From contig JACQZQ010000079.1 in NCBI GenBank assembly GCA_016213785.1, forward strand, positions 1-44,024: DNA of 44,024 nt, read 5' to 3'. Below are positions 17,060 to 35,174 of the stretch, piece after piece (the first letter of the stretch is position 1; each line of letters begins with the position of its first letter). Under the pieces are notes generated by a model. That model was not told the origin of the DNA, ran no database searches, and saw nothing but the letters and a program-made list of their open reading frames with translations. This DNA is from Acidobacteriota bacterium. Lineage in GTDB: Bacteria; Acidobacteriota; Blastocatellia; Chloracidobacteriales; JADJPF01. A program made the position numbers and the translations under genes.

Positions 17060-17305
17060 AAACTATTTTCCTATCTTTTTTACTTAAGGCGATTGAGAAT
17101 AACAAAAGCTGAGGGATGTTAACATAACCTAGGAAAGGTTGAAAAATAGGATTAGCCTATGAAACCCTGAATTTTAAATGTATTTTAAAATCCATTTTTT
17201 TGGAAATTTCCGATTTTTTGGAAAAATTTTAAAAAAACCTGAAACATTTTTAAAAAACTTACCACTCACTAGCATATTAAGAAGAAGGAATTCTAAGGAG
17301 TGGTT

Positions 17306-18301
17306 ATGAAAGAAAACATTTTTACTTTTATTGAATCTGAATCAACATTACAAAGATTTGCTAGAGTATCAAAAGAAGCTTATCAAGAAATTAAGGCTGA
17401 TCCTAAAAAATTTATTACTACTTTATTTTCTAAAGATAAGGTTAAAGGTCGTCAATACTTGCGTTTAGGGCTAGTGGGTGCTGCTTTTTGCTGGTTACTA
17501 GGTATAGTTGTTTATACTGGTATTTATTTTTGGCAAAGCCCAAAGAACTTAGAAGAAGGTCAGCACCTTCAATTAATCACTAGACTCGTTGCCCTTCCAC
17601 CAAGCCCAAAACCTAAACTTCCTCCAGTTAAAGCAGTCAATCGTGCTAGTGGTGGTGGCGGTGGTGGCAGAGTACACGAAATGTCTCCTCCACCTAAAGG
17701 AAGACTGCCCATTGCAGAATTAAAAAAATCAATTGTCGCACCAACAACTCGCCGTCCTGAAATAAAAATACCCATTTTGCCTGTTACACCAACTATTAAT
17801 GTCCAGCCTGAATTAATGGTTAAACAGGACAATACTATTGCTATAGGTCTACCAACAAATCTTCCTGCTCCTCCATCAGATGGAAATGGCGATGGTGGTG
17901 GCTATGGTGGTGGCAAAAATGGCGGTGTAGGTAAAGGAAATGGCGATGGTTATGGTGAAGGAATAGGAGGAAATCGAGGTAGTGGAGTTAATTCCCTAGG
18001 TGGAGGTGAAACCTACACTCAAAAATCACCAGGAATTAAACTTCCTATAATAACCCATACAGAAAAAGCTCGTTATACTGAAGAAGGCCGCTTAAATAAA
18101 ATTCAAGGCAAAGTAGTTATATCCGCTTTACTTAATAGAAATGGCACTATTACAGACATCAAAGTTTTAAGAAGTATAGGCTATGGGCTTGATGAAGAGG
18201 CTATTAAAACTACAATGAAAGTTAAATTTATTCCTGGAACTAAAAATGGACAAACTATTGATGTAAGAATGCTACTAGAATTTGATTTTCGTTTGCTTTA
18301 A
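17306..18301 (+). CDS. TonB-family energy transducer
   Basis: I choose the ATG at 17306, because AAGGAG ends five bases before it and overlaps the upstream GTG at 17300. The protein has 331 residues. A cytosolic N-terminus (1-52) precedes one transmembrane segment (about 53-76). A Pro-rich spacer (LPPSPKPKLPPV) and a Gly/Asn-rich periplasmic linker (about 195-230) follow. The TonB C-terminal domain (about 245-331) contains ARYTEEGRLNKIQGKVV and SIGYGLDEEAIKT. The cytosolic part is longer than in E. coli TonB. The region around the membrane segment and the C-terminal domain are homologous to the protein at 19016. ExbB and ExbD are not in the window. Confidence 0.9.
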   Translation: MKENIFTFIESESTLQRFARVSKEAYQEIKADPKKFITTLFSKDKVKGRQYLRLGLVGAAFCWLLGIVVYTGIYFWQSPKNLEEGQHLQLITRLVALPPSPKPKLPPVKAVNRASGGGGGGRVHEMSPPPKGRLPIAELKKSIVAPTTRRPEIKIPILPVTPTINVQPELMVKQDNTIAIGLPTNLPAPPSDGNGDGGGYGGGKNGGVGKGNGDGYGEGIGGNRGSGVNSLGGGETYTQKSPGIKLPIITHTEKARYTEEGRLNKIQGKVVISALLNRNGTITDIKVLRSIGYGLDEEAIKTTMKVKFIPGTKNGQTIDVRMLLEFDFRLL

Positions 18302-18417: not shown

Positions 18418-18999
18418 TTGCTTAAAGTGCCACTTTTGACTAAAACAGAAGTTAGCCTTAGTAGAGAAATGCTTGATGTTGTTACCCGAAGTCAACAGGG
18501 AGACAAAGAAGCATTTCATCACCTTTTTAGGCGTTATAGTAAACCTATACTTAGCTTTATTTATAATTTGGTAGGCGAAAAATCTCTTGCAGAAGAACTT
18601 GCTCAAGAGACTTTTGTAAGAGCTTATAAAAACCTAAATAATCTAAAAGATACAAGCAAATTCTCTAGCTGGCTTTTTGGGATCGCTAAAAATATTGTTA
18701 AGGAAAGCCTAAAAGAAAGCTATACAAATCAATATGTAGAATTAACAGAAATTGATCTAGAAACTCTAGAAACCCCTGATAAAAAAATAATAAATAATGA
18801 ACTTAATCAAGCTATTAAACTTGCAGTTTTAGAACTAAATGAGGATTGGAGAATTGTTTTTACGCTAAAAATGTTTCACCAAAAAAGTTATGAAGAAATA
18901 GCTGAAATAACTGGATGGTCAATAGCAAAAATAAAAACAGACCTTCATCGTGCTCGACTAGAACTTAGAACTAAACTACAAAACTATATAGTTTTATAG
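18418..18999 (+). CDS. ECF-type RNA polymerase sigma factor
   Basis: The start is a TTG at 18418 with a strong AAGGTGAT site six bases before it; the next ATG would cut into region 2. The 193 residues contain sigma region 2 (about 25-90: FHHLFRRYSKPILSFIY, EELAQETFVRAYKNL and FSSWLFGIAKNIV) and region 4 (about 135-190: DWRIVFTLKMFHQKSYEEIAEI with the recognition helix around SIAKIKTDLHRARLEL). It lies 16 bp before the zinc-finger/TonB protein, the position of a cognate anti-sigma factor. The target promoters are unknown. It is about 115 bp after the first TonB gene and may be co-transcribed with it. Confidence 0.94.
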   Translation: MLKVPLLTKTEVSLSREMLDVVTRSQQGDKEAFHHLFRRYSKPILSFIYNLVGEKSLAEELAQETFVRAYKNLNNLKDTSKFSSWLFGIAKNIVKESLKESYTNQYVELTEIDLETLETPDKKIINNELNQAIKLAVLELNEDWRIVFTLKMFHQKSYEEIAEITGWSIAKIKTDLHRARLELRTKLQNYIVL

Positions 19000-19015: not shown

Positions 19016-20266
19016 ATGAAATGTGCAGAAATACTTCTAATATTAGAAGACTATACTTACGGCGAGTTGCCAGATATAGATAGCATAGGCGTAGCTGCAC
19101 ATTTACGTGACTGCTCTAGTTGTCTAGAAAAATACGAATTAGTACTTAAAGAAAATGAAACTTTTGCAGATTATTTTACAGATATAGAAGTTAATCCTAA
19201 GCTTTGGGCAAATGTCCAAAAATGCATATCTTCAGAGCTAGAGCTTGAAGACTTAAAAAACACAAATAGTTTTCCTCAAAATCAAACTATTTCTCTTATC
19301 AAACCTGTGTTTTTAGAATTCTCTGAACCTCAAGCTCTTTGGAAAAGGTTAGTAACTGTTTTAGACACAACATTAAGTGATTTTAGTTCAAACCCTAAAC
19401 TCTTTTTTCAAAATCTATTTCAAGAAGATAGATTACTTACGCGAGATAAAAAATATTGGAGGGTTGGTAGGAACATAGCAACATTTCTTTGGCTATTTAG
19501 TTTAATTTCTTACGTAAGTGTAATTGAAAATTTACCAAAAAGCTTTTATCAAAAAGAAGAAGTAGAAAAAATAGTAGACTTAGCACCTCTCACTTTTCCA
19601 AAAAATTTAACGTCTAAAGAAAATCAACCTAGCCAAAATAATTCAAATAAAAATTCTATTATCTTATCAGAATCAAACACTTACAAAGGGAGTAGTTCAT
19701 CTTTAACTAATCAAGAGCCTAAGAATACTGTAAGTAATAGATATAGTTTTCCAAATATATCAATGCCTAAAGATTTACCTGATAGTAATTTACCTAGCTT
19801 AACATTTGGGATTACTAATGATAATGGTGCAAATAATGGAAGTTCTGATATTGCAGGATCAAAAGATGGGAAGGGAAAATCAGGTTTAGGTGAAAATCAA
19901 TCAATAGTTCAAGGAAGTGAAAATGGTTATGGGCTAGGAACTGGACAAGGGCCACAGCTTTTAGAAGGCGATATTATTTATAATGCTAATGATACTAATA
20001 TAATTCCTGTTAGGGTTTTATCTAAAGAGAAACCCCGTTATACAGAAGAAGCACGTCAAAAACAAATAGAAGGAAAAGTTATTTTATTAGTAATTTTTAA
20101 TAAAAATGGAGCAGTGACTAACATACAAGTTATCAGTAGTCTTGGGTATGGGTTAGACGAAGAGGCTATAAAAACAGCGTCTCAGGTAAAATTTCTTCCT
20201 GCAACAAAAAATGGATTAAATGTAAGTGTTAGAGCAAGGTTAGAATATACTTTTACTCTATTTTAA
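19016..20266 (+). CDS. Anti-sigma zinc finger fused to TonB C-terminal domain
   Basis: The 416-residue protein begins with a ZAS-type motif: Cys3, then His29-x3-Cys33-x2-Cys36, the pattern by which cytosolic anti-sigma domains hold ECF factors. A soluble stretch (about 60-150) leads to one membrane segment (about 153-172), a Ser/Asn/Gly-rich periplasmic linker, and a TonB C-terminal domain (about 330-416: PRYTEEARQKQIEGKVIL and SLGYGLDEEAIKT). Residues from about 105 onward are paralogous to the TonB at 17306, so the gene looks like that TonB with an anti-sigma head added. The start is 16 bp after the sigma stop. I infer that it binds the sigma factor and responds to receptor engagement in the periplasm. 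Whether it also energises receptors is unknown. Confidence 0.85.
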   Translation: MKCAEILLILEDYTYGELPDIDSIGVAAHLRDCSSCLEKYELVLKENETFADYFTDIEVNPKLWANVQKCISSELELEDLKNTNSFPQNQTISLIKPVFLEFSEPQALWKRLVTVLDTTLSDFSSNPKLFFQNLFQEDRLLTRDKKYWRVGRNIATFLWLFSLISYVSVIENLPKSFYQKEEVEKIVDLAPLTFPKNLTSKENQPSQNNSNKNSIILSESNTYKGSSSSLTNQEPKNTVSNRYSFPNISMPKDLPDSNLPSLTFGITNDNGANNGSSDIAGSKDGKGKSGLGENQSIVQGSENGYGLGTGQGPQLLEGDIIYNANDTNIIPVRVLSKEKPRYTEEARQKQIEGKVILLVIFNKNGAVTNIQVISSLGYGLDEEAIKTASQVKFLPATKNGLNVSVRARLEYTFTLF

Positions 20267-23556: not shown

Positions 23557-26500
23557 TTATCGTAAAAAGCCATAGGTTAGGGCAAATTGGATTGTCCTAG
23601 AAGAAAGAGAGCTATTTACACTTGATCCAAAACCTGGTGATTCTAAAATCCTTACAGGTACTCCAAAATGTGTGCGATTAAAAATATTAAAAGCTTCAAC
23701 CCTTAAATTAATTGTTTGGCTTTGAGTTAGCTTAAGTTTTTTTGAAATGGCTAAATCTAGTGAAGCAATTCCCTGACTACGAAAGGTGTTTCGCCCTACA
23801 GCGCCATTATTTCCTGCTAAAGCAAGTAGCGAAAATAAAGATATATTAGAAGGTAAACTTATTCGAGTTCGCCCTTTATTAGAAATTATTAAATTCTCTG
23901 AATTATCTAAGCGATCAGACAAATTACCATCAAAGTTAATATCTGAACTAGAATTTACAGTAAATGGTTGACCAGTTTGTAATGTTAAAATCCCAGAAAA
24001 ATTAATTTCTTTTAGAATATTTATTAATCTATTATTACCTATGGTATTAAAAGGTTGATATTGGAAAGCTGTACTAAAACGATGTCTAACATCAAAATTA
24101 GCACTAGCTCTTTCTGCTTTTAATCCTAGATTAAATTCTCTTTCATCTTGAGCAGAATTAAAACTTGCGGCTGTGTCAAAAATATCTGACATTTCATCTA
24201 TTGTATGAGAATAGGTATAGGCTGTTTGAAAAAAGAATTTTGTACTAAACCTTTTATTTATGGCTATTTGTAAAGAATGGTAATTAGAATTAGCCGAGCT
24301 AGCAAAGCTAGTAACAGTATCTAAGGCTGGATTAGGTCGTTTTAGTAAAGCTAAAACAGAAGGGGTAACACCTGAAATTGCCCTTATTCCTACTGTAGTA
24401 AATTGTCCTCCATTTGGAGTACGAACTTTAATTAGTTTTTTACCTAGAGTTGCAGCATAAGCAATTGAAAGAGTAAAGCGATTAAAGAAAGCTTGTTCTA
24501 AGGAAAAGGAAATTTGTTGAGTATAAGGTGAACGTAAGTTCTTTTCTGGCAATGTGATACCAGCACCAAAACCAGCACCTACAAAAAATCCACCTACAGA
24601 AATCAATCTACCTATACTTCCTACAAACTCTGTAGATGGAAAGTTTAGAGTATTTAGACTACCAGGAACAATAATAGGCCGACTAATATTCTGAGTGCTT
24701 AAGCGTAAGAAAGCAGGATTAGCACTTAAAACATCAGGAAAAAGAATAGCTGAGCCAAAATTAATAGGAATAAAATTAGGAAAAGCATTACGAGACTGAT
24801 TAACAACCACACCAAGAATCGGGTCATAAAATACACCATAACCTGCCCTTAAGGAGGTTCGGCCATTTCCTCTTATATCCCAAGCAAGTGATAGACGAGG
24901 AGCAAAGTTATTATTATCAGCGCTATAGATTTTTTCTCTGCCTGCTAAAAAGCCTCGTTGAGCATTTACAGCATCAAAAAATCTATCAGAAAAAACACTT
25001 GTTGGATCAAAAACAAGCGAGTCAATGTCCTTAAGGCTTAAAGAGCGTTCTAGCCTGCCTCTTTGATCTGTTGGAACGCTATTACGTTCATAGCGAAGCC
25101 CTAGAGAAAGATTTACTCTAGGGTGAAGTCGAAACTGATCATGAAGAAAAAGGTTTATCTCAGTAAAGCCTAAGGCAAGCGATGAATTTGGCTCAATGGC
25201 TAAGGCTTGAAAAATACTTGATGGAAGCCCAAGAGCAGCAAAATCTACTCCTGTACCTAGAGATGTTCTACCGCTTAAACCTCTGGATATAAAACCACTG
25301 GTAAAGCTAATTTGAGTTCGGTAATTACGTTCTAGAAAGCTATTTAACTCAACAAGTCTTAAGTCAAAACCAAATTTAATTGTATGTCTTTTAAGGTCTA
25401 TTATTGTTGTATCTGCGATTTGAAAAGTGTTATTTACTCGGCCTTGAGGAAAAATACTTGGGTCAATACCTATTGGGCTAAAAGGAGCTAAAAGGATTCT
25501 CCCAATTGGGCCTGTGCTTCCATCCGGTAATCCATCGCCTGTTCGGTCTTTTTGTCTAATTCTAGATTGAAAAACTAATGGACTACCTAAAACTTCGGCA
25601 AAGTTTAGTGATGTACGTCCATAAGAAAACCTAGTTTGGTTAGAAATACTTTTAGTCAAAGATAAATTTAGAGCTAAAACTAAATTTTGTGTTCTGGTAA
25701 ATGCTTTAATACTTGAGTTTAGTGCATTGTCAACGGTTGGAATCAAAGTCTCATCATCAGTAAAATTATAGCGAGTGTTAAAGGTAGAAGGTTTAGATAA
25801 AAAATTATTTTTCCCATCTAATCTTAAGCTAAAAATCCTTCCATCTCCATTAGCAGAGATTAACCTAGTAAAAGTATTGTCCTGATAAGGGCCACCAGGG
25901 TTATTAGGTAAAGGATAAAAGCTTGGATCAAGAACATCTCTACCTAACTTGCTACTATTTTTAGCAAACCTAAAAGCTTTTTCCCTTTCAGAAAAGCTAG
26001 GGACAACAAAATGTACTTCCTCCATTTTTTCAATATGTTGGAGTTCAAAAGAGCCAAAAAACTGTAGCTCATTTTTCTTTATTGGAAAGGCTAAAATCCC
26101 TCCAAACTGATTTCTAGTAAAAGGGTTTTTCTTAGGGTTAGCTTGGTTTTGGAGGTCAAAAAAATCTCTAGCATTAAATTTAGAATCTGTAAAATAATTA
26201 TGAAGTTGGCCTTGAATAAAATTACTACCTGTCTTTGAAACAATATTTATTTGGCCTCCAGAATTTCGGCCTGATTCAGCATCAGCTAGTAAAGTAGAGA
26301 TTTGAAACTCTTTAATTGACTCAACAGATTGTGATGTAGTAGGGGTAAAACCTTGGCGACGAACGCCTATGTCTTGATCATTATTATCTGACCCATCAAT
26401 TGTAAAATTATTACTTCGAGCACGAGCGCCATTTACAGAAAATTGTCCTGTACCTCCAACACCTGTACCAATAGCTGGCCCATTAGATCCTTTAGTAGCA

Positions 26501-27060
26501 GGTGAAGGAAAAACTCCTGGTAGAAGTAAGGCTAGGCTATCAAAGCTACGAATACCAGGCAAAGGTAAAATACTAATTAGATTTTCTGCAAAATTTCCTC
26601 TTAATGTTGCATCTACAATATTTACTTGTAGAGGATCATCAGCAACTAATGAAATAGGTGTTAAAGGAATATTATTAGTTGCTGTGCTATTTATTTGGAT
26701 TGTTAAACTAGCTAGGCTATTTAGCTTTATTGGAGGAGGTTTAATTACTTTTGGTCGGTTTACTTCAATTAAATATCTAGATATTTCTGTAGTCTGATAG
26801 CCCTCTTTTGAGGCTGTAATACGATATTCTCCAGCTAAAAGTAAATCAATTTTATATAAGCCATCAGAGTCAGTTAATTTTGCGTAGTCAAAGCCCGTAG
26901 TAAGGTTATAAAGTTTTATTAATACACCAGATAAAGTATTACTTTGTTCATCTATAACAGTTCCTTCCAAACTACCAGTAATGGTTTGTCCTTTAGCTAT
27001 AGAAAACCCACAAATCAACAAAAGAGTTAGAAAAAATACCCTAGAAAAATTTATTTTCAT
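23557..27060 (-). CDS. Oar-like TonB-dependent receptor
   Basis: The 1167-residue protein starts with a signal peptide (1-24, ending in AKGQ). A carboxypeptidase-regulatory domain (about 28-115: SLEGTVIDEQSNTLSGVLIK and GEYRITASKEGYQT) follows. The plug (about 200-290) contains GQFSVNGARARSNNFTIDGSDNND and the RNSGGQINIVSKTGSN signature seen in Oar/adventurous-gliding type receptors. The barrel ends FALTYGFLR, with an aromatic residue near the end. These large receptors are greatly expanded in Acidobacteriota and import unknown polymers or peptides. It lies downstream of the two NHL-repeat genes in the same orientation, with a 127-bp gap that carries a long inverted repeat. Confidence 0.92.
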   Translation of the reverse strand: MKINFSRVFFLTLLLICGFSIAKGQTITGSLEGTVIDEQSNTLSGVLIKLYNLTTGFDYAKLTDSDGLYKIDLLLAGEYRITASKEGYQTTEISRYLIEVNRPKVIKPPPIKLNSLASLTIQINSTATNNIPLTPISLVADDPLQVNIVDATLRGNFAENLISILPLPGIRSFDSLALLLPGVFPSPATKGSNGPAIGTGVGGTGQFSVNGARARSNNFTIDGSDNNDQDIGVRRQGFTPTTSQSVESIKEFQISTLLADAESGRNSGGQINIVSKTGSNFIQGQLHNYFTDSKFNARDFFDLQNQANPKKNPFTRNQFGGILAFPIKKNELQFFGSFELQHIEKMEEVHFVVPSFSEREKAFRFAKNSSKLGRDVLDPSFYPLPNNPGGPYQDNTFTRLISANGDGRIFSLRLDGKNNFLSKPSTFNTRYNFTDDETLIPTVDNALNSSIKAFTRTQNLVLALNLSLTKSISNQTRFSYGRTSLNFAEVLGSPLVFQSRIRQKDRTGDGLPDGSTGPIGRILLAPFSPIGIDPSIFPQGRVNNTFQIADTTIIDLKRHTIKFGFDLRLVELNSFLERNYRTQISFTSGFISRGLSGRTSLGTGVDFAALGLPSSIFQALAIEPNSSLALGFTEINLFLHDQFRLHPRVNLSLGLRYERNSVPTDQRGRLERSLSLKDIDSLVFDPTSVFSDRFFDAVNAQRGFLAGREKIYSADNNNFAPRLSLAWDIRGNGRTSLRAGYGVFYDPILGVVVNQSRNAFPNFIPINFGSAILFPDVLSANPAFLRLSTQNISRPIIVPGSLNTLNFPSTEFVGSIGRLISVGGFFVGAGFGAGITLPEKNLRSPYTQQISFSLEQAFFNRFTLSIAYAATLGKKLIKVRTPNGGQFTTVGIRAISGVTPSVLALLKRPNPALDTVTSFASSANSNYHSLQIAINKRFSTKFFFQTAYTYSHTIDEMSDIFDTAASFNSAQDEREFNLGLKAERASANFDVRHRFSTAFQYQPFNTIGNNRLINILKEINFSGILTLQTGQPFTVNSSSDINFDGNLSDRLDNSENLIISNKGRTRISLPSNISLFSLLALAGNNGAVGRNTFRSQGIASLDLAISKKLKLTQSQTINLRVEAFNIFNRTHFGVPVRILESPGFGSSVNSSLSSRTIQFALTYGFLR

Positions 27061-27187: not shown

Positions 27188-30100
27188 CTACCTCAATTTA
27201 ATAAAACGCACAGCATTAAAATCTATTCTGCCATTAACAAGAACAAAAATATTGCCGTCTTTATTTATAACTAATCTACTTAAAAAATCTAAACCAGCTT
27301 CTGATAGTGGTTTTCCATCACCAGAATAATCTCTTATTTTGCTATCAGCAACTGTAGTTATTATTTTTGTTTGGGCATCTATACGACGAATTTTGTAAGT
27401 TTGACTTTGAAAATCAAAAACAAGAAGAAAAAGATTGTCATCACCATCAATGCTTAGACTTATTATACTACCCAACCCAGCATTATTTACTAATCCTCCA
27501 TCACCAGAAACAGTAGTTGAACCATTGCCTCCAATTATAACTATTTGCTTTGTAAGGGGATTTATTTGTTTAAGAATATTACTATCTTCAAATATTAAGT
27601 TCCCTAACTTATCAGTAGCTATAACAAAACCTGAAAAAGTATTTCCCAAAATTAGAGAAGTAACTATTTTTGTATTTGAATCAATTCTACGTACTTTTCC
27701 GCCTGAAGAACTAGTATAAACATAAGCATTGTTTTTATTATCTACAACTATTTCAAAGATAAAACTAAATCCTGCATTTGTAGCTAGTTCCCCGTCTCCA
27801 ATATCTGAGGCAATTCCATTACCAGCAATACTAGTAATAATCCCTGTTTTCAAGTCTAATTTCCTAATACGGCTTCCTTCTAAGAAATTATCGCGATTAT
27901 CTGCAATTAGTAAATTATCTTGATTATCAATAGCTAAAGCGTAAGGAAAGCAAATAGCATTAATGCCTAAGCCGCCATCACCATTTCCAGTAGTATTGCT
28001 AGTATCTTTACCAACAATAGTAGAAATCTCTCTTGTAACAGCGTCTATTTTTCTAACTAATCCATTTCTATAATCTGCTAAATAAAGGTTATTACTTGAA
28101 TCAACAGCAATATCTTCAACTACTCCAATAGAAGCTTTTTCTGCCAAAATATTATCACCAAAGAGGTTAAAGTTTTTATTGCCTGCAACTAATGTAGCTT
28201 CTTGAGTGGCTATATTAAAGCGGTAAACAAAACTTGGAAAAGCAGTAAAAAAGAGATTTCCTAAACCATCAAAAGCAATTTTTCCAACAGTAAAATCAGG
28301 AGGAAGAAAACTATCGTCAAGTTTTATAGATTTAGTAGATAAAATTCCTGTTTTTGAACTGACTTGTAAAATTTCATTTGACGCAAATGGGTTACTAGCT
28401 TGAAAGTCTCCACCAAAATCAGAAATAAATAAATCTCCATCTGGAGAAATTGCTATCCCTTCAGGAATAATCAAACCTGCTCTAGTAGCTAGTTTACCAT
28501 TTCTATTGTTAGCATCATTTCTATTACCAGTTCCTGCAACAGTAGTAATTATTCCTGTTTTAGCATCTATTTTCCTTATTCTTTCACTAAGATTTTCACA
28601 GATAAAAATGTTATTTTCTTTATCAAGAGCAATGGAAAAGGCATCTCCAAGACTTGCTTGGGTAGCTGGGCCACCATCGCCATCAAATCTTTCTCTACCT
28701 GTACCAGCAATAGTATTAATTATGCCTGTTCTAGCACTAATTCTACGTAAACGAGTAGCTTCTAAAACTAATAAGTTACCATCTTTATCAAAAGTAATAT
28801 CTCTTAGGTCTCTAAAACCAGCTTTTATAGCAGGCCCCCCATCACCTGAAGAAATAAAACCATTTCCACCAGCAATTGTAGTAATTGTGTTTGTCAATGA
28901 ATCAACTTCTCTAATACGATTACTTCCTATGGTATCAGCAATAACTAAATTACCTTTCCCGTTAAGTGCAATACTTATAATACTTAATTTTGCTGTAGTA
29001 GCTAAAACTCTATCAAAAACACTACTACCGCCACCAGCTACCGTAGTAATAATGCCTGTATTTGCATCTACACGACGGACTCTTAAAAATTCAGAGATAA
29101 AGAGATTATTTTTACTATCTGCTATTATTTTTGTTGGTATAGCTAAACCTGTTTGTTTTGCGTCTGCACCATCTCCGCTAAAAATACTCCCTCCAGTAAC
29201 AGTAGTTATTTGTCCAACACCTATAGAAGATGCAGCAGGAGCAACAGCGCTTAGAGTACTTTGGGCTAAACCTCCACGAGTTAGAAGAGAAAGTGTTAAT
29301 TTTCCAGGCACTTTAGGGGCATTAAGTGGAAAACGTAGTTCCTCAGCACTAATAACAGAAACATTTGATACAAGTTCACCTCCAACAACTACTTGGGTCT
29401 TAGGAGCAAAATTTTTTCCTTTTACTATTACTTCTTTAGTGTTTTCCAAAGTTATAGTGTCTGGTTCAATAGAATTAATTATAGGTGCTCCAACAGAAAC
29501 AATCTTTAGCGCCTCGCTAGAGGTTTCTAAATCTATGAATTCTTCAAAAGAAGTAACTCCTACCCCAGAAGCTACTGATTTAGAATCTAAAGTATTTATT
29601 TTAGCAGTACTATTATCTAAGACAAAAACTTCTGAGCCTTTAACAGTTAAGCTAATAGCTTTATTAAATGTATTTTCTTGAGCTAGCGAAGATACTTCAA
29701 TAACATTATCTGAAATACGATTAACTACTTGAACACCTGTACCATCAACAACATAAATAGTACCTAATCCATCTATCCCAACAGACTGAGGTTTACTAAA
29801 AGAAATTTCTATATTTTGATTTGCTTCAGTTTTAGATAAAGTTGAAACTCTACCAATAGGAGCACCTTTACTAGTGGGTAAGAGTTCGATTAAACGAACT
29901 CGATTATTATCTTCATCAGCAACGGTAAGTAACCGGCCATCACTGCTTAGTGCCATACCTGATGGGCGACGAAATCTAGCCTCTCTACCCATTCCATCTT
30001 CTTTTCCACTTTCGCCAGGTTCTCCAGCAACAAGAAAAATCTGTTCTAATGAAGAATCTACATAATAAATTGCATGATTATCTGTATCAGCAATATAGAG

Positions 30101-30853
30101 ATTACCACCATTATCAGTAACTATCCCTCTAGGGCTATTAAGTAGAATTTGGTCAAAACCTGTAAAGCCCTCATTAAAACGGCTTACTCCTGGAAAACCT
30201 CTACCAATAATGGTTTCCACTTGTTTATCAAAGCCAATCTTACGAACACTGTGATTAAGTGTGTCTGTAACATAAATTCCGCCCTTATCTCTATTATCAA
30301 CACCAATAGCGGTTGGGCCTGCAAAAAGGGCTTCTGCTAATAAACCATTTCTATTTCCTGCAATTTTTGGTTTACCTGCAAAAATCTTTAGTTTTGAGTT
30401 TAGAGCATTATCTGTCTTAAATATTACATTTTGCAAAGGGTTGGAAATATAAACTGCTCCCTTAGCATCTGTTTTTGTATCTCCTGGAACAATTAGCCCA
30501 TTGCCTTTTTTTACTCTAGTAACAGCTAAGAAAACAGAAAAAGTTTCTGAGCCGCGAATTGCAGTAATAGTAGCAAATCCTGCCTTAATGCCTAAGACTT
30601 TCCCTGTAGTAGTTTCTATTTCTGCAATATCTGGACTACCAGACTTCCAACTAACTCCGTTAGTTAAGGAATTTCCACTATTATCAATTGCTGTTAGTGT
30701 AATTTGATTTCCTTCATTAACTACAGGAGACTTTTGTTTAATTTCAAAACTCCTAGAATTAGCTTTTATTGCTATATCCTCTTGATAAAAATCATTTGTA
30801 GTTAAAAGAAAACCCAAAGTTAGAAACAAAATAAAGAAATATTTTTTATTCAT
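27188..30853 (-). CDS. Giant secreted NHL-repeat protein with Big and IPT/TIG domains (paralogue A)
   Basis: I prefer the Met codon at 30853 (MNKKYFFILFLTLGFLL...), because AGGA lies 11-12 bases before it; the ATG at 30865 has only AGG directly against it. The result, 1221 residues, matches its paralogue at 31512 (1220). In order it has: a signal peptide; a bacterial Ig-like Big-2 domain (about 45-115, SPDIAEIETTTGKVLGIKAG); a first group of NHL repeats (about 120-430, units like GNLYIADTDNHAIYYVD); an IPT/TIG domain (about 455-535, INSIEPDTITLENTKEVIVKG); and a long second run of NHL repeats, each with GDGG and ITTVAG-type turns. NHL propellers bind proteins or ligands; no enzyme motif is visible. 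Antisense frames here are long only because the repeats bias codons. Confidence 0.88.
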   Translation of the reverse strand: MNKKYFFILFLTLGFLLTTNDFYQEDIAIKANSRSFEIKQKSPVVNEGNQITLTAIDNSGNSLTNGVSWKSGSPDIAEIETTTGKVLGIKAGFATITAIRGSETFSVFLAVTRVKKGNGLIVPGDTKTDAKGAVYISNPLQNVIFKTDNALNSKLKIFAGKPKIAGNRNGLLAEALFAGPTAIGVDNRDKGGIYVTDTLNHSVRKIGFDKQVETIIGRGFPGVSRFNEGFTGFDQILLNSPRGIVTDNGGNLYIADTDNHAIYYVDSSLEQIFLVAGEPGESGKEDGMGREARFRRPSGMALSSDGRLLTVADEDNNRVRLIELLPTSKGAPIGRVSTLSKTEANQNIEISFSKPQSVGIDGLGTIYVVDGTGVQVVNRISDNVIEVSSLAQENTFNKAISLTVKGSEVFVLDNSTAKINTLDSKSVASGVGVTSFEEFIDLETSSEALKIVSVGAPIINSIEPDTITLENTKEVIVKGKNFAPKTQVVVGGELVSNVSVISAEELRFPLNAPKVPGKLTLSLLTRGGLAQSTLSAVAPAASSIGVGQITTVTGGSIFSGDGADAKQTGLAIPTKIIADSKNNLFISEFLRVRRVDANTGIITTVAGGGSSVFDRVLATTAKLSIISIALNGKGNLVIADTIGSNRIREVDSLTNTITTIAGGNGFISSGDGGPAIKAGFRDLRDITFDKDGNLLVLEATRLRRISARTGIINTIAGTGRERFDGDGGPATQASLGDAFSIALDKENNIFICENLSERIRKIDAKTGIITTVAGTGNRNDANNRNGKLATRAGLIIPEGIAISPDGDLFISDFGGDFQASNPFASNEILQVSSKTGILSTKSIKLDDSFLPPDFTVGKIAFDGLGNLFFTAFPSFVYRFNIATQEATLVAGNKNFNLFGDNILAEKASIGVVEDIAVDSSNNLYLADYRNGLVRKIDAVTREISTIVGKDTSNTTGNGDGGLGINAICFPYALAIDNQDNLLIADNRDNFLEGSRIRKLDLKTGIITSIAGNGIASDIGDGELATNAGFSFIFEIVVDNKNNAYVYTSSSGGKVRRIDSNTKIVTSLILGNTFSGFVIATDKLGNLIFEDSNILKQINPLTKQIVIIGGNGSTTVSGDGGLVNNAGLGSIISLSIDGDDNLFLLVFDFQSQTYKIRRIDAQTKIITTVADSKIRDYSGDGKPLSEAGLDFLSRLVINKDGNIFVLVNGRIDFNAVRFIKLR

Positions 30854-30934
30854 AAATCTATGCATCCTACGCTATTTAATACAAATTTTTTGTATTTTTA
30901 TTTTTATTAAAAATCGATTGTAGCTTACAAACAT

Positions 30935-31511: not shown

Positions 31512-34500
31512 CTACTGACTAAGTTTAACTAGTCTTACAGAATTAAAAAGTGTTTCACTAATTACTAGGTAAAGATCTCCTTTTTTATCTGTAAGAACCG
31601 TGTTTACAATTCCTAAATTGGCTTTGGTTGCTATATCACCATCACCTTTGTAGTCTCTATCACCAAGGGCAGGATTTTTATTACCTGCTATAGTATTTAT
31701 AATTTTTGTCTGAGCATCAACTTTACGTACTACAATAACAAAATTTTCTTCGCCAAAAGATATTTTTTCAGAAACAATAAAAAGATTGCCTGCTTTATCT
31801 ATATTTAAGCCAATAACAACACCTAAACTTGCTTGAGAGAGTGGCCCACCATCACCACTAATCTCTATTTTACCATCACCAGCAAAAGCTGTTACTTCGC
31901 CCGTTTTAGGGTCAATACTTTTAATAAAGCTAGTTGCATCACAAACAAGTATTCTCCCAGATTTATCAAAAACTAAAGAAGTAGAAAAACTATTTCCTGC
32001 AACTTTAGCCACAGTAGTAATAATTCCTGTCTTACTATCAATTTTACGTAATTTACTCCCTCTAGTAACAAAAAATATATTATCATTCGGATCTAGTGCT
32101 AAACTAAAAGTTGGGCTTATACCTGCTCGTATTGCTGGGCCATCATCTCCAGTATCTGTATTAGTACCATTACCCCCTATTGTAGTAATGATATTTGTTT
32201 TTAGATTTACTTTCCTTATCTGTGAACCTAAAGCTCGATTATCAATAATAATTAAGTTATTTTGACTATCAATGGCTAACTTAATAGGTCTAACAATTGC
32301 TTTAGCAGCATCTCCCCCATCACCATTACCAATAGTCCCACTAGTATCTTTGCCTACTATAGTAGTTACAATAGATGTATTAGCATCTATTTTTCTTACC
32401 ATAAAATTAGCAAAATCTGCTATATATAAATTATCATTTGAATCAAAAACAGCATCCAGACTACTGCCTAAGCTAGTAATTTGTGCAGGCTTACCATCTG
32501 GAGTAAAGTTAAATTTTTTGCTACCTGCCAATAATCTAGCATCACCAGTATTTGGGTTAAGATTATAGATAAAACCATTTCCACTAAAGAAAAGATTACC
32601 TAGTCCATCCAAAGCCAATTTGCCACTAACAGAAAAATCCTCAGGCATAGTATTAAAATTAGATAGTTTGATTTTTTGAGAATGTATAAGACCTGTGGTT
32701 AAATCTATTTTTGAAATAGTTGCAGCTAAAAATGCCCCTCCATCTGGAAATTTTACTAGTTTATTTCGATCAATAAAAAACAAAGTGTTATCAGAAATAG
32801 TAATAGCATCAGGCGAGCTTAAACTTACTTTGGTTGCAGGTCTACCTTCTCTATCTTTTTTAATTGATAGCTCACCATCTCTAGTAATACCTAATCTTTT
32901 TCCATTACCAGCTATTGTTCTAATAATTCCACTAGTATCAATACGTCTAATTCTTCCACTTAAAAGTTCTGTAATAAAAATATTGCCTTTTTTATCAACA
33001 TCTATAGCACCAGCAAAACCCAAACCAGCATTTATGGCTGGGCCTCCATCACCACTAAATCTATCAGTTCCATTACCAGCTATTGTTCTAATAATTCCAT
33101 TAGCGTCAATATGGCGTAAACGTTTTTGTTCTAAAACCAATAAATTGTTATTAATATCAAAGGCTAAATCAATAATCTCTTCAAAACCAGCATTTATAGC
33201 AGGCCCACCATCACCACTAAACTTGCGGCCTTTGCCTGCAACAGTAGTAATAGTATTAGTTATACTATCGATACGTCGTATTCTTTGAGTAAAACCATCT
33301 GCAACAAAAAGATTCCCTGATTTATCTACTGCAAGGCTTCTAGCAAGTATTTTAGCTGTACCTGCAAGTACATCATCTTCAAATGATTCTCCATCACCTG
33401 CAATAGTAGTAATAAGTTTTGTTTGGGCATCAATTCTACGAACTCTAAGTGAATCAGCAATAAACAGATTACCACTACCATCTATCGCTGTTTTAGATAC
33501 AAAAAGAAAGCTACTTTGATCAGGACTTCCTCCATCACCATTAAAAGAACGTCCACCTGCAATAGTAGTAATCTCACCAGCATTAAGCATAGAAGCAGGC
33601 TTAGCTATAACATCTAAAGGAAGTTGAGCTATACCTCCACGAGTTAAAACTGTAAGAGTTAATTTACCTGGAGCATTTTTAGCAGGAAAACGAAAACGTA
33701 TTTCTTCAGCACTAACAACTTTCACATCCTGCACAAGCTTACCAGACACAATAACTTGGCTTTCAGGAGCAAAACTACTTCCTTTTACAACAATCTCTTT
33801 ATTTTCACCTAAGTTAATTATTGGGGGTTCAACAGAGTTTATTTTTGGGCCTCCTACAGAAACAATTTTTAATGATTCTGAATCTAGTCCGCCATTATCC
33901 AGCACAAAAACCTCTGTGCCCTTAATAGTTAAACTTACTGCACTATTAAAAGAAACCTCCTGTTGTGCTAATGGCATAACTTGTGGGGCTTGTCTTTGGC
34001 TACGAGTAATTAACTGAACCCCTATTCTATCAACTACATAAATATTACCAAGACCATCTAAACCAACCGATTGAGGTTTGTCAAAAACAAACTCTTCTGC
34101 TGATGCATTAGATGTTTCACTAGCTAAAGATTGAGTTATACTAGCTGCTCCTAAAGTAGAAACTGTACCTGTTAAATTACCTTGGCTATCACGCGAAATA
34201 TCAATAAGTCGAACTCTATTATTATCTTCGTCTGCAACTGTTAAAAGCCTCCCATCACTACTTAGAGCCATTCCTGATGGACGACGAAATTTAGCTTGCC
34301 TTCCTATTCCATCATCTTTTCCACTTTGTCCTGGTTCACCTGCTAGCAAGAAAACTCTTCCACGTGACATATCTGCATAATAAACTGCATGGTTATCTGT
34401 ATCAGCAATATAAAAATTTCCACCAGCATCGCTTACTACACCTCTTGGGCTACTAAGTCTAACATTACTGAGGCTTAGTCCTTCACTAGGAAAAAGGCTT

Positions 34501-35174
34501 ACTCCAGGAGATCCACTACCTATAAGGGTTTCTACCTGTTTATTAAAACCTACTTTCCTAATACTATGATTAAGTGTGTCTGCTACGTATAATCCTCCAT
34601 TAGCATTATTATTTACACCAATAGCAGTTGGGCCTGCAAAAAGGGCTTCTTCTACTTTACCATTTTTATTTCCAGCAACTTTTGTGGTGCCAGCATAAAC
34701 TTGTAAGGGTGAATTTAAGGAATTGTTTGCTTTAAGAATTACATTTTGAAGGGGATTAGAAATATAGATACTACCATTTGAATCAAGTTTAGTGTCACCA
34801 GGAACTTTAGCTCCATTAGATTTTCTTACTTTTGCAACAACAATAAAAACAGATGATGTCTCTGAACCTCTTTTAGCTGTTATAGTGGCAAAGCCTGACT
34901 TAACACCAAAAACTTCTCCTGTGTTTGCATTAACTTGAGCAATATCTGGGCTACCAGATTGCCAAACCACTCCACCACTTATACTGGATCCTGAAGCATC
35001 AATAGTAGTTAAAATAATCCTGTTACCCTCATTAACTACTGGATTTCTTTGTTTTATTCTAATTTGTTGCTGATAGGCTTTTGTGCCTAAAGAAAATAAA
35101 GGTATTTGATCAAAATTTTTTGGACTTAGAAAATAACCTACTAATAATAAAGAAAGAAGCATAGCCCTTTTCAT
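31512..35174 (-). CDS. Giant secreted NHL-repeat protein with Big and IPT/TIG domains (paralogue B)
   Basis: The 1220 residues share the domain order of the product at 27188: a signal peptide (about 1-33, MKRAMLLSLLLVGYFLS); a Big-2 domain (about 45-115, SPDIAQVNANTGEVFGVKSG); NHL repeats (about 120-420); an IPT/TIG domain (about 440-520, INSVEPPIINLGENKEIVVKG); and a second propeller run with GDGGPAINAG- and ITTIAGNG-type turns. It is exported and probably extracellular or surface-bound. No catalytic residues are recognised. It is the 5' member of a run containing paralogue B, the sigma-4 ORF, paralogue A and the Oar-like receptor, all on the minus strand. I infer a tandem duplication of gene plus promoter. 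Confidence 0.88.
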   Translation of the reverse strand: MKRAMLLSLLLVGYFLSPKNFDQIPLFSLGTKAYQQQIRIKQRNPVVNEGNRIILTTIDASGSSISGGVVWQSGSPDIAQVNANTGEVFGVKSGFATITAKRGSETSSVFIVVAKVRKSNGAKVPGDTKLDSNGSIYISNPLQNVILKANNSLNSPLQVYAGTTKVAGNKNGKVEEALFAGPTAIGVNNNANGGLYVADTLNHSIRKVGFNKQVETLIGSGSPGVSLFPSEGLSLSNVRLSSPRGVVSDAGGNFYIADTDNHAVYYADMSRGRVFLLAGEPGQSGKDDGIGRQAKFRRPSGMALSSDGRLLTVADEDNNRVRLIDISRDSQGNLTGTVSTLGAASITQSLASETSNASAEEFVFDKPQSVGLDGLGNIYVVDRIGVQLITRSQRQAPQVMPLAQQEVSFNSAVSLTIKGTEVFVLDNGGLDSESLKIVSVGGPKINSVEPPIINLGENKEIVVKGSSFAPESQVIVSGKLVQDVKVVSAEEIRFRFPAKNAPGKLTLTVLTRGGIAQLPLDVIAKPASMLNAGEITTIAGGRSFNGDGGSPDQSSFLFVSKTAIDGSGNLFIADSLRVRRIDAQTKLITTIAGDGESFEDDVLAGTAKILARSLAVDKSGNLFVADGFTQRIRRIDSITNTITTVAGKGRKFSGDGGPAINAGFEEIIDLAFDINNNLLVLEQKRLRHIDANGIIRTIAGNGTDRFSGDGGPAINAGLGFAGAIDVDKKGNIFITELLSGRIRRIDTSGIIRTIAGNGKRLGITRDGELSIKKDREGRPATKVSLSSPDAITISDNTLFFIDRNKLVKFPDGGAFLAATISKIDLTTGLIHSQKIKLSNFNTMPEDFSVSGKLALDGLGNLFFSGNGFIYNLNPNTGDARLLAGSKKFNFTPDGKPAQITSLGSSLDAVFDSNDNLYIADFANFMVRKIDANTSIVTTIVGKDTSGTIGNGDGGDAAKAIVRPIKLAIDSQNNLIIIDNRALGSQIRKVNLKTNIITTIGGNGTNTDTGDDGPAIRAGISPTFSLALDPNDNIFFVTRGSKLRKIDSKTGIITTVAKVAGNSFSTSLVFDKSGRILVCDATSFIKSIDPKTGEVTAFAGDGKIEISGDGGPLSQASLGVVIGLNIDKAGNLFIVSEKISFGEENFVIVVRKVDAQTKIINTIAGNKNPALGDRDYKGDGDIATKANLGIVNTVLTDKKGDLYLVISETLFNSVRLVKLSQ

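Follow-up and report, generated by a model that had tools for sequence, protein, structure and literature searches.

A membrane protein joining a putative zinc anti-sigma domain to a TonB C-terminal domain behind an ECF sigma factor gene in Blastocatellia

We analyzed a 44,024-nt stretch of DNA from an Acidobacteriota bacterium of the class Blastocatellia (contig JACQZQ010000079.1; genome G000), referred to here as the window. Three consecutive genes encode a TonB-family protein, an ECF sigma factor and a hybrid protein with the following features.

17300..18301, plus strand: upstream TonB-family protein, related to the TonB half of the hybrid but lacking a zinc finger (PF03544, 57.7 bits)
18418..18999, plus strand: gene for an ECF sigma factor of 193 aa with a TTG start, the presumed partner of the hybrid (Pfam Sigma70_r2 and Sigma70_r4_2; SigW match)
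19016..20266, plus strand: hybrid gene, 416 aa, ATG start (putative anti-sigma domain, membrane helix, linker and TonB C-terminal domain)
19016..19225, plus strand: putative class I anti-sigma domain, residues 1–70 (conservation, RsiW/RsrA profile, model, dN/dS)
19022–19024, 19100–19102, 19112–19114 and 19121–19123, plus strand: presumed zinc ligands C3, H29, C33 and C36
19472..19531, plus strand: transmembrane helix, approximately residues 153–172 (hydropathy maximum, alignment with the plain-TonB helix, dN/dS)
19532..19990, plus strand: periplasmic linker, ~150 residues (alignment with plain TonBs, dN/dS)
19991..20263, plus strand: TonB C-terminal domain, residues 326–416 (PF03544, model, match to receptor-bound TonB, dN/dS)

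The sigma factor matches SigW in the PDB at E 2e-21 and belongs to an ECF group found across the class, with relatives among named records of the phylum Acidobacteriota (for example, Blastocatellia and Pyrinomonadaceae bacterium). Its stop codon lies 16 nt before the hybrid ATG. The upstream TonB gene ends ~117 nt before the sigma gene, an order that is identical in a second genome (G001, locus L088), and its product shares 47% identity with the hybrid over the last 108 residues. No transporter gene is present in the operon of the hybrid; the nearest, at 23557–27060, lies on the opposite strand behind groES/groEL and encodes a TonB-dependent receptor with a CarboxypepD_reg N-terminus, in which Pfam detected no STN domain. 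An STN-bearing receptor is encoded elsewhere in G000 (L332), and an argument from absent FecA-type receptors was dropped for this reason. No convincing ECF promoter common to the sigma genes was identified in their upstream regions; in a third genome, G002, the contig ends there. As separate observations, the window also encodes two large proteins with NHL-repeat, Big_2 and TIG domains (27188–30865 and 31512–35174, minus strand), which are likely paralogues, and STN-like domains occur outside secretins and receptors (L327, L328 and L329, L333). This STN-like set includes small secreted proteins that carry two STN-like repeats as well as others with a kinase-like N-terminal part and an STN-like end, the two kinds lying close together in both genomes.

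As the first-pass annotation had described, the hybrid has an N-terminal anti-sigma-like domain connected by a single membrane helix to a TonB C-terminal domain, a layout borne out by Pfam, hydropathy and structure models. Pfam placed zf-HC2 at residues 3–36 (22.3 bits, cut-off 22.2) and TonB_C (PF03544) at residues 339–415 (63.8 bits, cut-off 24.6). The zinc motif reads C3...H29-x3-C33-x2-C36, confirming the full Cys-His-x3-Cys-x2-Cys signature noted directly behind the ECF gene. Only one hydrophobic segment was found by hydropathy, around residues 153–172, and this single membrane anchor with the long periplasmic linker gives the protein a TonB-type layout. The helix lacks the ExbB-coupling histidine of E. 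coli TonB (SHLS), as does that of an ExbD-adjacent TonB from the same genome. The linker is rich in Asn and Ser in the window protein and in Gly and Pro in G002. Likewise, the periplasmic end had correctly been read as TonB rather than FecR type: no FecR family was matched by Pfam in the hybrid, whose outer part consists of the linker and TonB_C.

The class was searched with the sigma factor using a three-row profile (A2), in which its group scored ~150–240 bits and other ECF factors <~115 bits. Members of this group occur in many genomes of the class, and at 27 of 27 loci (L131–L157) the next gene starts with the same anti-sigma domain (26–49 bits against window residues 1–80) without a TonB domain. 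Named records (L158–L166, some from genomes shared with the former set) agree, with the sigma gene followed by the same domain. Alignment of the anti-sigma domains that are paired with ECF factors across the class showed no variation at C3, H29, C33, C36 and E46 and 97% conservation of W64; the window hybrid retains all of them. Among PDB structures, a profile of ten such domains matched RsiW (E 4e-7) and RsrA (E 7e-4). By these matches and that of the sigma factor to SigW, the two proteins resemble the halves of the solved SigW–RsiW complex. The AlphaFold model of the anti-sigma domain contains four helices (residues 3–14, 20–32, 34–56 and 61–83). Foldseek with this model returned weak E-values (best 0.34), with RsiW, RskA, RslA, DdvA and MucA as top matches, and fold comparison with ECF anti-sigma domains (RsiW, MucA, RslA) gave Z scores of ~7 and up to 7.4. 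For a small helical domain, a fold match is weak evidence when taken alone but strong in combination with the sequence profile and pairing. The zinc-finger assignment of the first-pass annotation is likewise supported by class-wide pairing, the RsiW profile and the fold, while its Pfam score alone is borderline. There is strong evidence that residues 1–70 form a SigW/RsiW-type class I anti-sigma domain, for which sigma inhibition is predicted.

For the TonB end, the AlphaFold model (pLDDT 90) resembled TonB in complex with FoxA (Z 11.8, 6i97_D), TbpA (Z 11.0) and BtuB (Z 10.1), and a profile of the domain matched TonB chains at E values down to 3e-12. The whole TonB half, including the cytoplasmic stretch before the helix, aligns with plain TonBs from the same taxonomic family. 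On profile and model evidence, the outer end is a real TonB C-terminal domain and is predicted to contact receptors. The protein, therefore, looks like a genuine single membrane chain with a sigma-inhibitor-like inner end and a TonB receptor-contacting outer end, as judged from sequences and models.

A search for proteins with zf-HC2 and TonB_C, suggested by the first-pass annotation, identified three genomes (G000, G001 and G002), with an ECF gene in front in all three. The full architecture is 53% identical in G001 and 37–38% identical in G002, and the presumed zinc residues, expected to be conserved in orthologues, are invariant there as in the class-wide anti-sigma family. When all fetched loci were scanned, ORFs containing both domains came solely from these three genomes. 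Among the matches listed from a three-row profile search of 297 genomes of the phylum, a sample outside which G001 and G002 lie, the only full-length exact fusion was that of the window itself. Within what was searched, the exact zinc anti-sigma/TonB fusion is confined to one family. Selection was estimated between G000 and G001 (dS ~1). The dN/dS ratio was 0.09 for the sigma factor, 0.21 for the anti-sigma domain, 0.18 for the membrane helix (residues 146–172) and 0.16 for the TonB C-terminal domain, with 0.46–0.59 in the linker and juxtamembrane parts; both ends of the hybrid are under purifying selection. The fusion is not due to chance, since the anti-sigma domain is conserved class-wide and matched by the RsiW/RsrA profile and since the full architecture recurs with its ECF gene in G001 and G002. 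An artefact or chance motif was ruled out by this recurrence in three genomes, the class-wide pairing, the invariant residues and purifying selection.

G001 and G002 carry an ordinary ECF/anti-sigma pair (L238, L239) alongside the hybrid pair. None was seen in G000 in the class-wide sigma search, which may reflect loss or an assembly gap. In both the sigma and anti-sigma trees, the hybrids fall on one side of a supported branch (98/96 and 98/91, respectively). The tree of the TonB half groups it with the upstream TonB, the plain TonBs on contigs C91 and C509 and that of G003, all of its own family (99/99), and within this group the G002 half and the G003 TonB are joined with weak support (85/78). 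G003 belongs to the same family and has this TonB without a zinc finger or adjacent sigma gene. Two origins of the TonB half were considered, but a single origin was not rejected (p-AU 0.108). These sequence data are best read as duplication of the class-wide ECF/anti-sigma pair followed by replacement of the outer part of one copy with a TonB half, because all 27 ordinary pairs lack TonB and G001 and G002 keep both versions.

Each half of the hybrid has counterparts among known proteins. Like the class I zinc anti-sigma factors (zf-HC2/ZAS) of SigW/RsiW, RsrA, ChrR and RslA, it has a cytoplasmic Hx3Cx2C domain and is encoded directly behind an ECF gene, and it shares a single membrane helix with the RsiW type; it differs on the outer side, where a long linker carries a TonB C-terminal domain. 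Similarly, the ordinary Blastocatellia pair (L131–L166, L238, L239) has the same sigma group and anti-sigma domain but an outer part without TonB. The plain TonBs of the same family (17300–18301, G000 C91, G001 C509, G003 C20) align with the hybrid in the juxtamembrane stretch, helix, linker length and C-terminal domain but lack the anti-sigma domain and an adjacent ECF gene, except that 17300–18301 precedes the sigma gene. In FecI/FecR surface signalling, an ECF sigma factor is likewise connected to the outer membrane by a membrane protein. The first-pass annotation had stated that receptor, anti-sigma factor and TonB are separate proteins in known surface signalling, which agrees with FecR-type systems, where the STN domain of the receptor contacts FecR (PMC9249621); in contrast, the hybrid anti-sigma protein itself bears the TonB domain. 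Another ECF-system signalling component with a TolA/TonB-like C-terminal domain is VreA of the Pseudomonas aeruginosa PUMA3 system, a periplasmic STN-domain protein whose C-terminal domain was proposed to contact outer-membrane partners (PMC2729926). VreA has an STN domain and its operon encodes the anti-sigma factor VreR as a separate protein (PMC4971064), whereas the hybrid unites the TonB and anti-sigma ends. TonB goes unmentioned in the main text of a survey of class I anti-sigma factors (PMC7406223). No anti-sigma/TonB fusion was found in the literature searched, which included few subscription journals, VreA being the only comparable case; such fusions are possibly listed in domain-architecture databases although unreported in papers.

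Regarding the spread of the design, the exact fusion is a one-family feature within the material searched, but TonBs that lie next to ECF genes and have different N-termini are present in other parts of the class. Neighbourhoods were read for 45 TonB_C ORFs, chosen by similarity to the window protein rather than at random. An ECF gene lay directly in front of eight, as judged by a single-sequence search that could miss distant ECF genes, and all eight have a cytoplasmic N-terminal extension. This extension is the zinc anti-sigma domain in G001 and G002, as in the window; a YLWDxSGEPDPEI segment in family f2 (G005, G008, G012); and an LLxxWxxPxP segment in family f4 (G015, G023, G055). The N-terminal segment ‘YLWDxSGEPDPEIxxLExxLG’ (L092, L098, L099, L256–L284; Blastocatellia) was found directly behind an ECF gene at 26 of 30 loci, with TonB_C fusions at six, and Pfam matched no family to it in the two fusions scanned. 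The f4 segment (L094, L095, L096, L286–L292) was a TonB fusion behind an ECF gene at all seven clear loci, and in seven f4 genomes ‘LLxxWxxPxPSxxLDxRV’ is followed by a CxxC...CxxD-type ribbon and then TonB_C. By their position, both segments may act as anti-sigma parts. Since ECF-adjacent TonBs with unrelated N-termini occur in these two other families, the TonB/ECF-regulator design may be recurrent. A broader proposal, that Blastocatellia practice one-chain surface signalling in which TonBs are ECF anti-sigma factors with an inner end acquired at least three times from unrelated segments, each beside an ECF gene (the zinc domain in f1, the YLWD segment in f2 and the LLxxWxxPxP segment in f4), and TonB-box engagement rather than a receptor signalling domain switches transcription, is tentative and in our view somewhat doubtful.

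Other N-terminal variants were also recorded. Several TonBs (L102, L103, L105, L106, L111–L115) start with a zinc-ribbon-like ‘MKICPTCQQQYPNGFQYCPND’ segment and had no detected adjacent sigma gene. Others (L090 8438–9667, L093, L101) carry up to three copies of a cytoplasmic ‘LxxRLxxExxxxxxDFxxNPxxFxxxxF’ motif before the helix. A second ECF-preceded zinc anti-sigma protein in G000 (L021 1483–2205, contig C6) has a truncated TonB_C-like outer end, its zinc and TonB_C-like domains both scoring just below Pfam cut-offs.

We moderately favor a model in which the hybrid is a transmembrane ECF anti-sigma factor that originated by domain swap, uses its TonB domain as outside sensor and frees the sigma factor on transporter contact. 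Residues 1–70, identified by sequence, pairing and fold, would hold the adjacent ECF sigma factor at the inner membrane. On its ~150-residue linker, the TonB domain could reach the outer membrane and engage the TonB box of ligand-loaded transporters. This engagement would release the sigma factor, either by tension on the membrane helix or by making the stalk accessible to regulated proteolysis. In this way, one chain would inform the cell of the number of transporters presenting a TonB box, with no receptor signalling domain. Such a chain would have arisen from a duplicated class-wide pair with one outer part replaced, as the trees and the genomes with both versions suggest. TonB–receptor contact as the signal is plausible, with VreA as the nearest precedent found. 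The model is supported by the many TonB-dependent transporters in G000 that the domain could contact (130 OMP_b-brl_4 match rows from 54 scored candidates; the rows are fragments, so the proteins number fewer than 130). Against it, signal passage through a flexible 150-residue linker is not obvious, and the hybrid was found in only three genomes, with no transporter in the operon and no convincing ECF promoter.

The hybrid could alternatively be a real anti-sigma factor in which the TonB fold was reused to sense a non-transporter input, such as peptidoglycan or a periplasmic protein. Sensor input can change by domain swap, because the ordinary class-wide anti-sigma protein has an unrelated outer part; moreover, the truncated outer end of L021 is hardly suited for receptor binding, and the Gly/Pro-rich linker composition was lost in G000 and G001. 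We nevertheless consider this option rather unlikely, given that strong purifying selection acts on the C-terminal domain, whose TonB fold is complete and most similar to that of TonB bound to receptors. Less probable still is a mainly working TonB energy transducer whose sigma factor gauges TonB abundance or modulates TonB, serving homeostasis rather than surface sensing. The G002 hybrid retains the Gly/Pro-rich linker of plain TonBs and is the only clear TonB of its clade seen in that genome (83% complete), and the neighbouring gene 17300–18301 encodes a plain TonB; however, G000 and G001 possess plain TonBs from the hybrid’s clade, and further TonBs adjoin ExbD genes elsewhere in G000. A vestigial or chance zinc finger without anti-sigma function, conceivable from a Pfam score just 0.1 bit over the cut-off, is hardly credible against the class-wide pairing, invariant residues, profile and fold matches, purifying selection and occurrence in three genomes.

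The established role of TonB is to deliver energy outward to receptors. The hybrid joins a part predicted to touch transporters and a part predicted to control genes in one chain rather than in separate proteins, and this natural union of TonB and a putative sigma inhibitor would allow inward signalling by receptor contact to be tested directly with a single gene, a single sigma factor and a single reporter. If the favored model is true, it would give bacteria with dozens of Oar-like TonB receptors a simple means of tying gene expression to the overall activity of their transporters.
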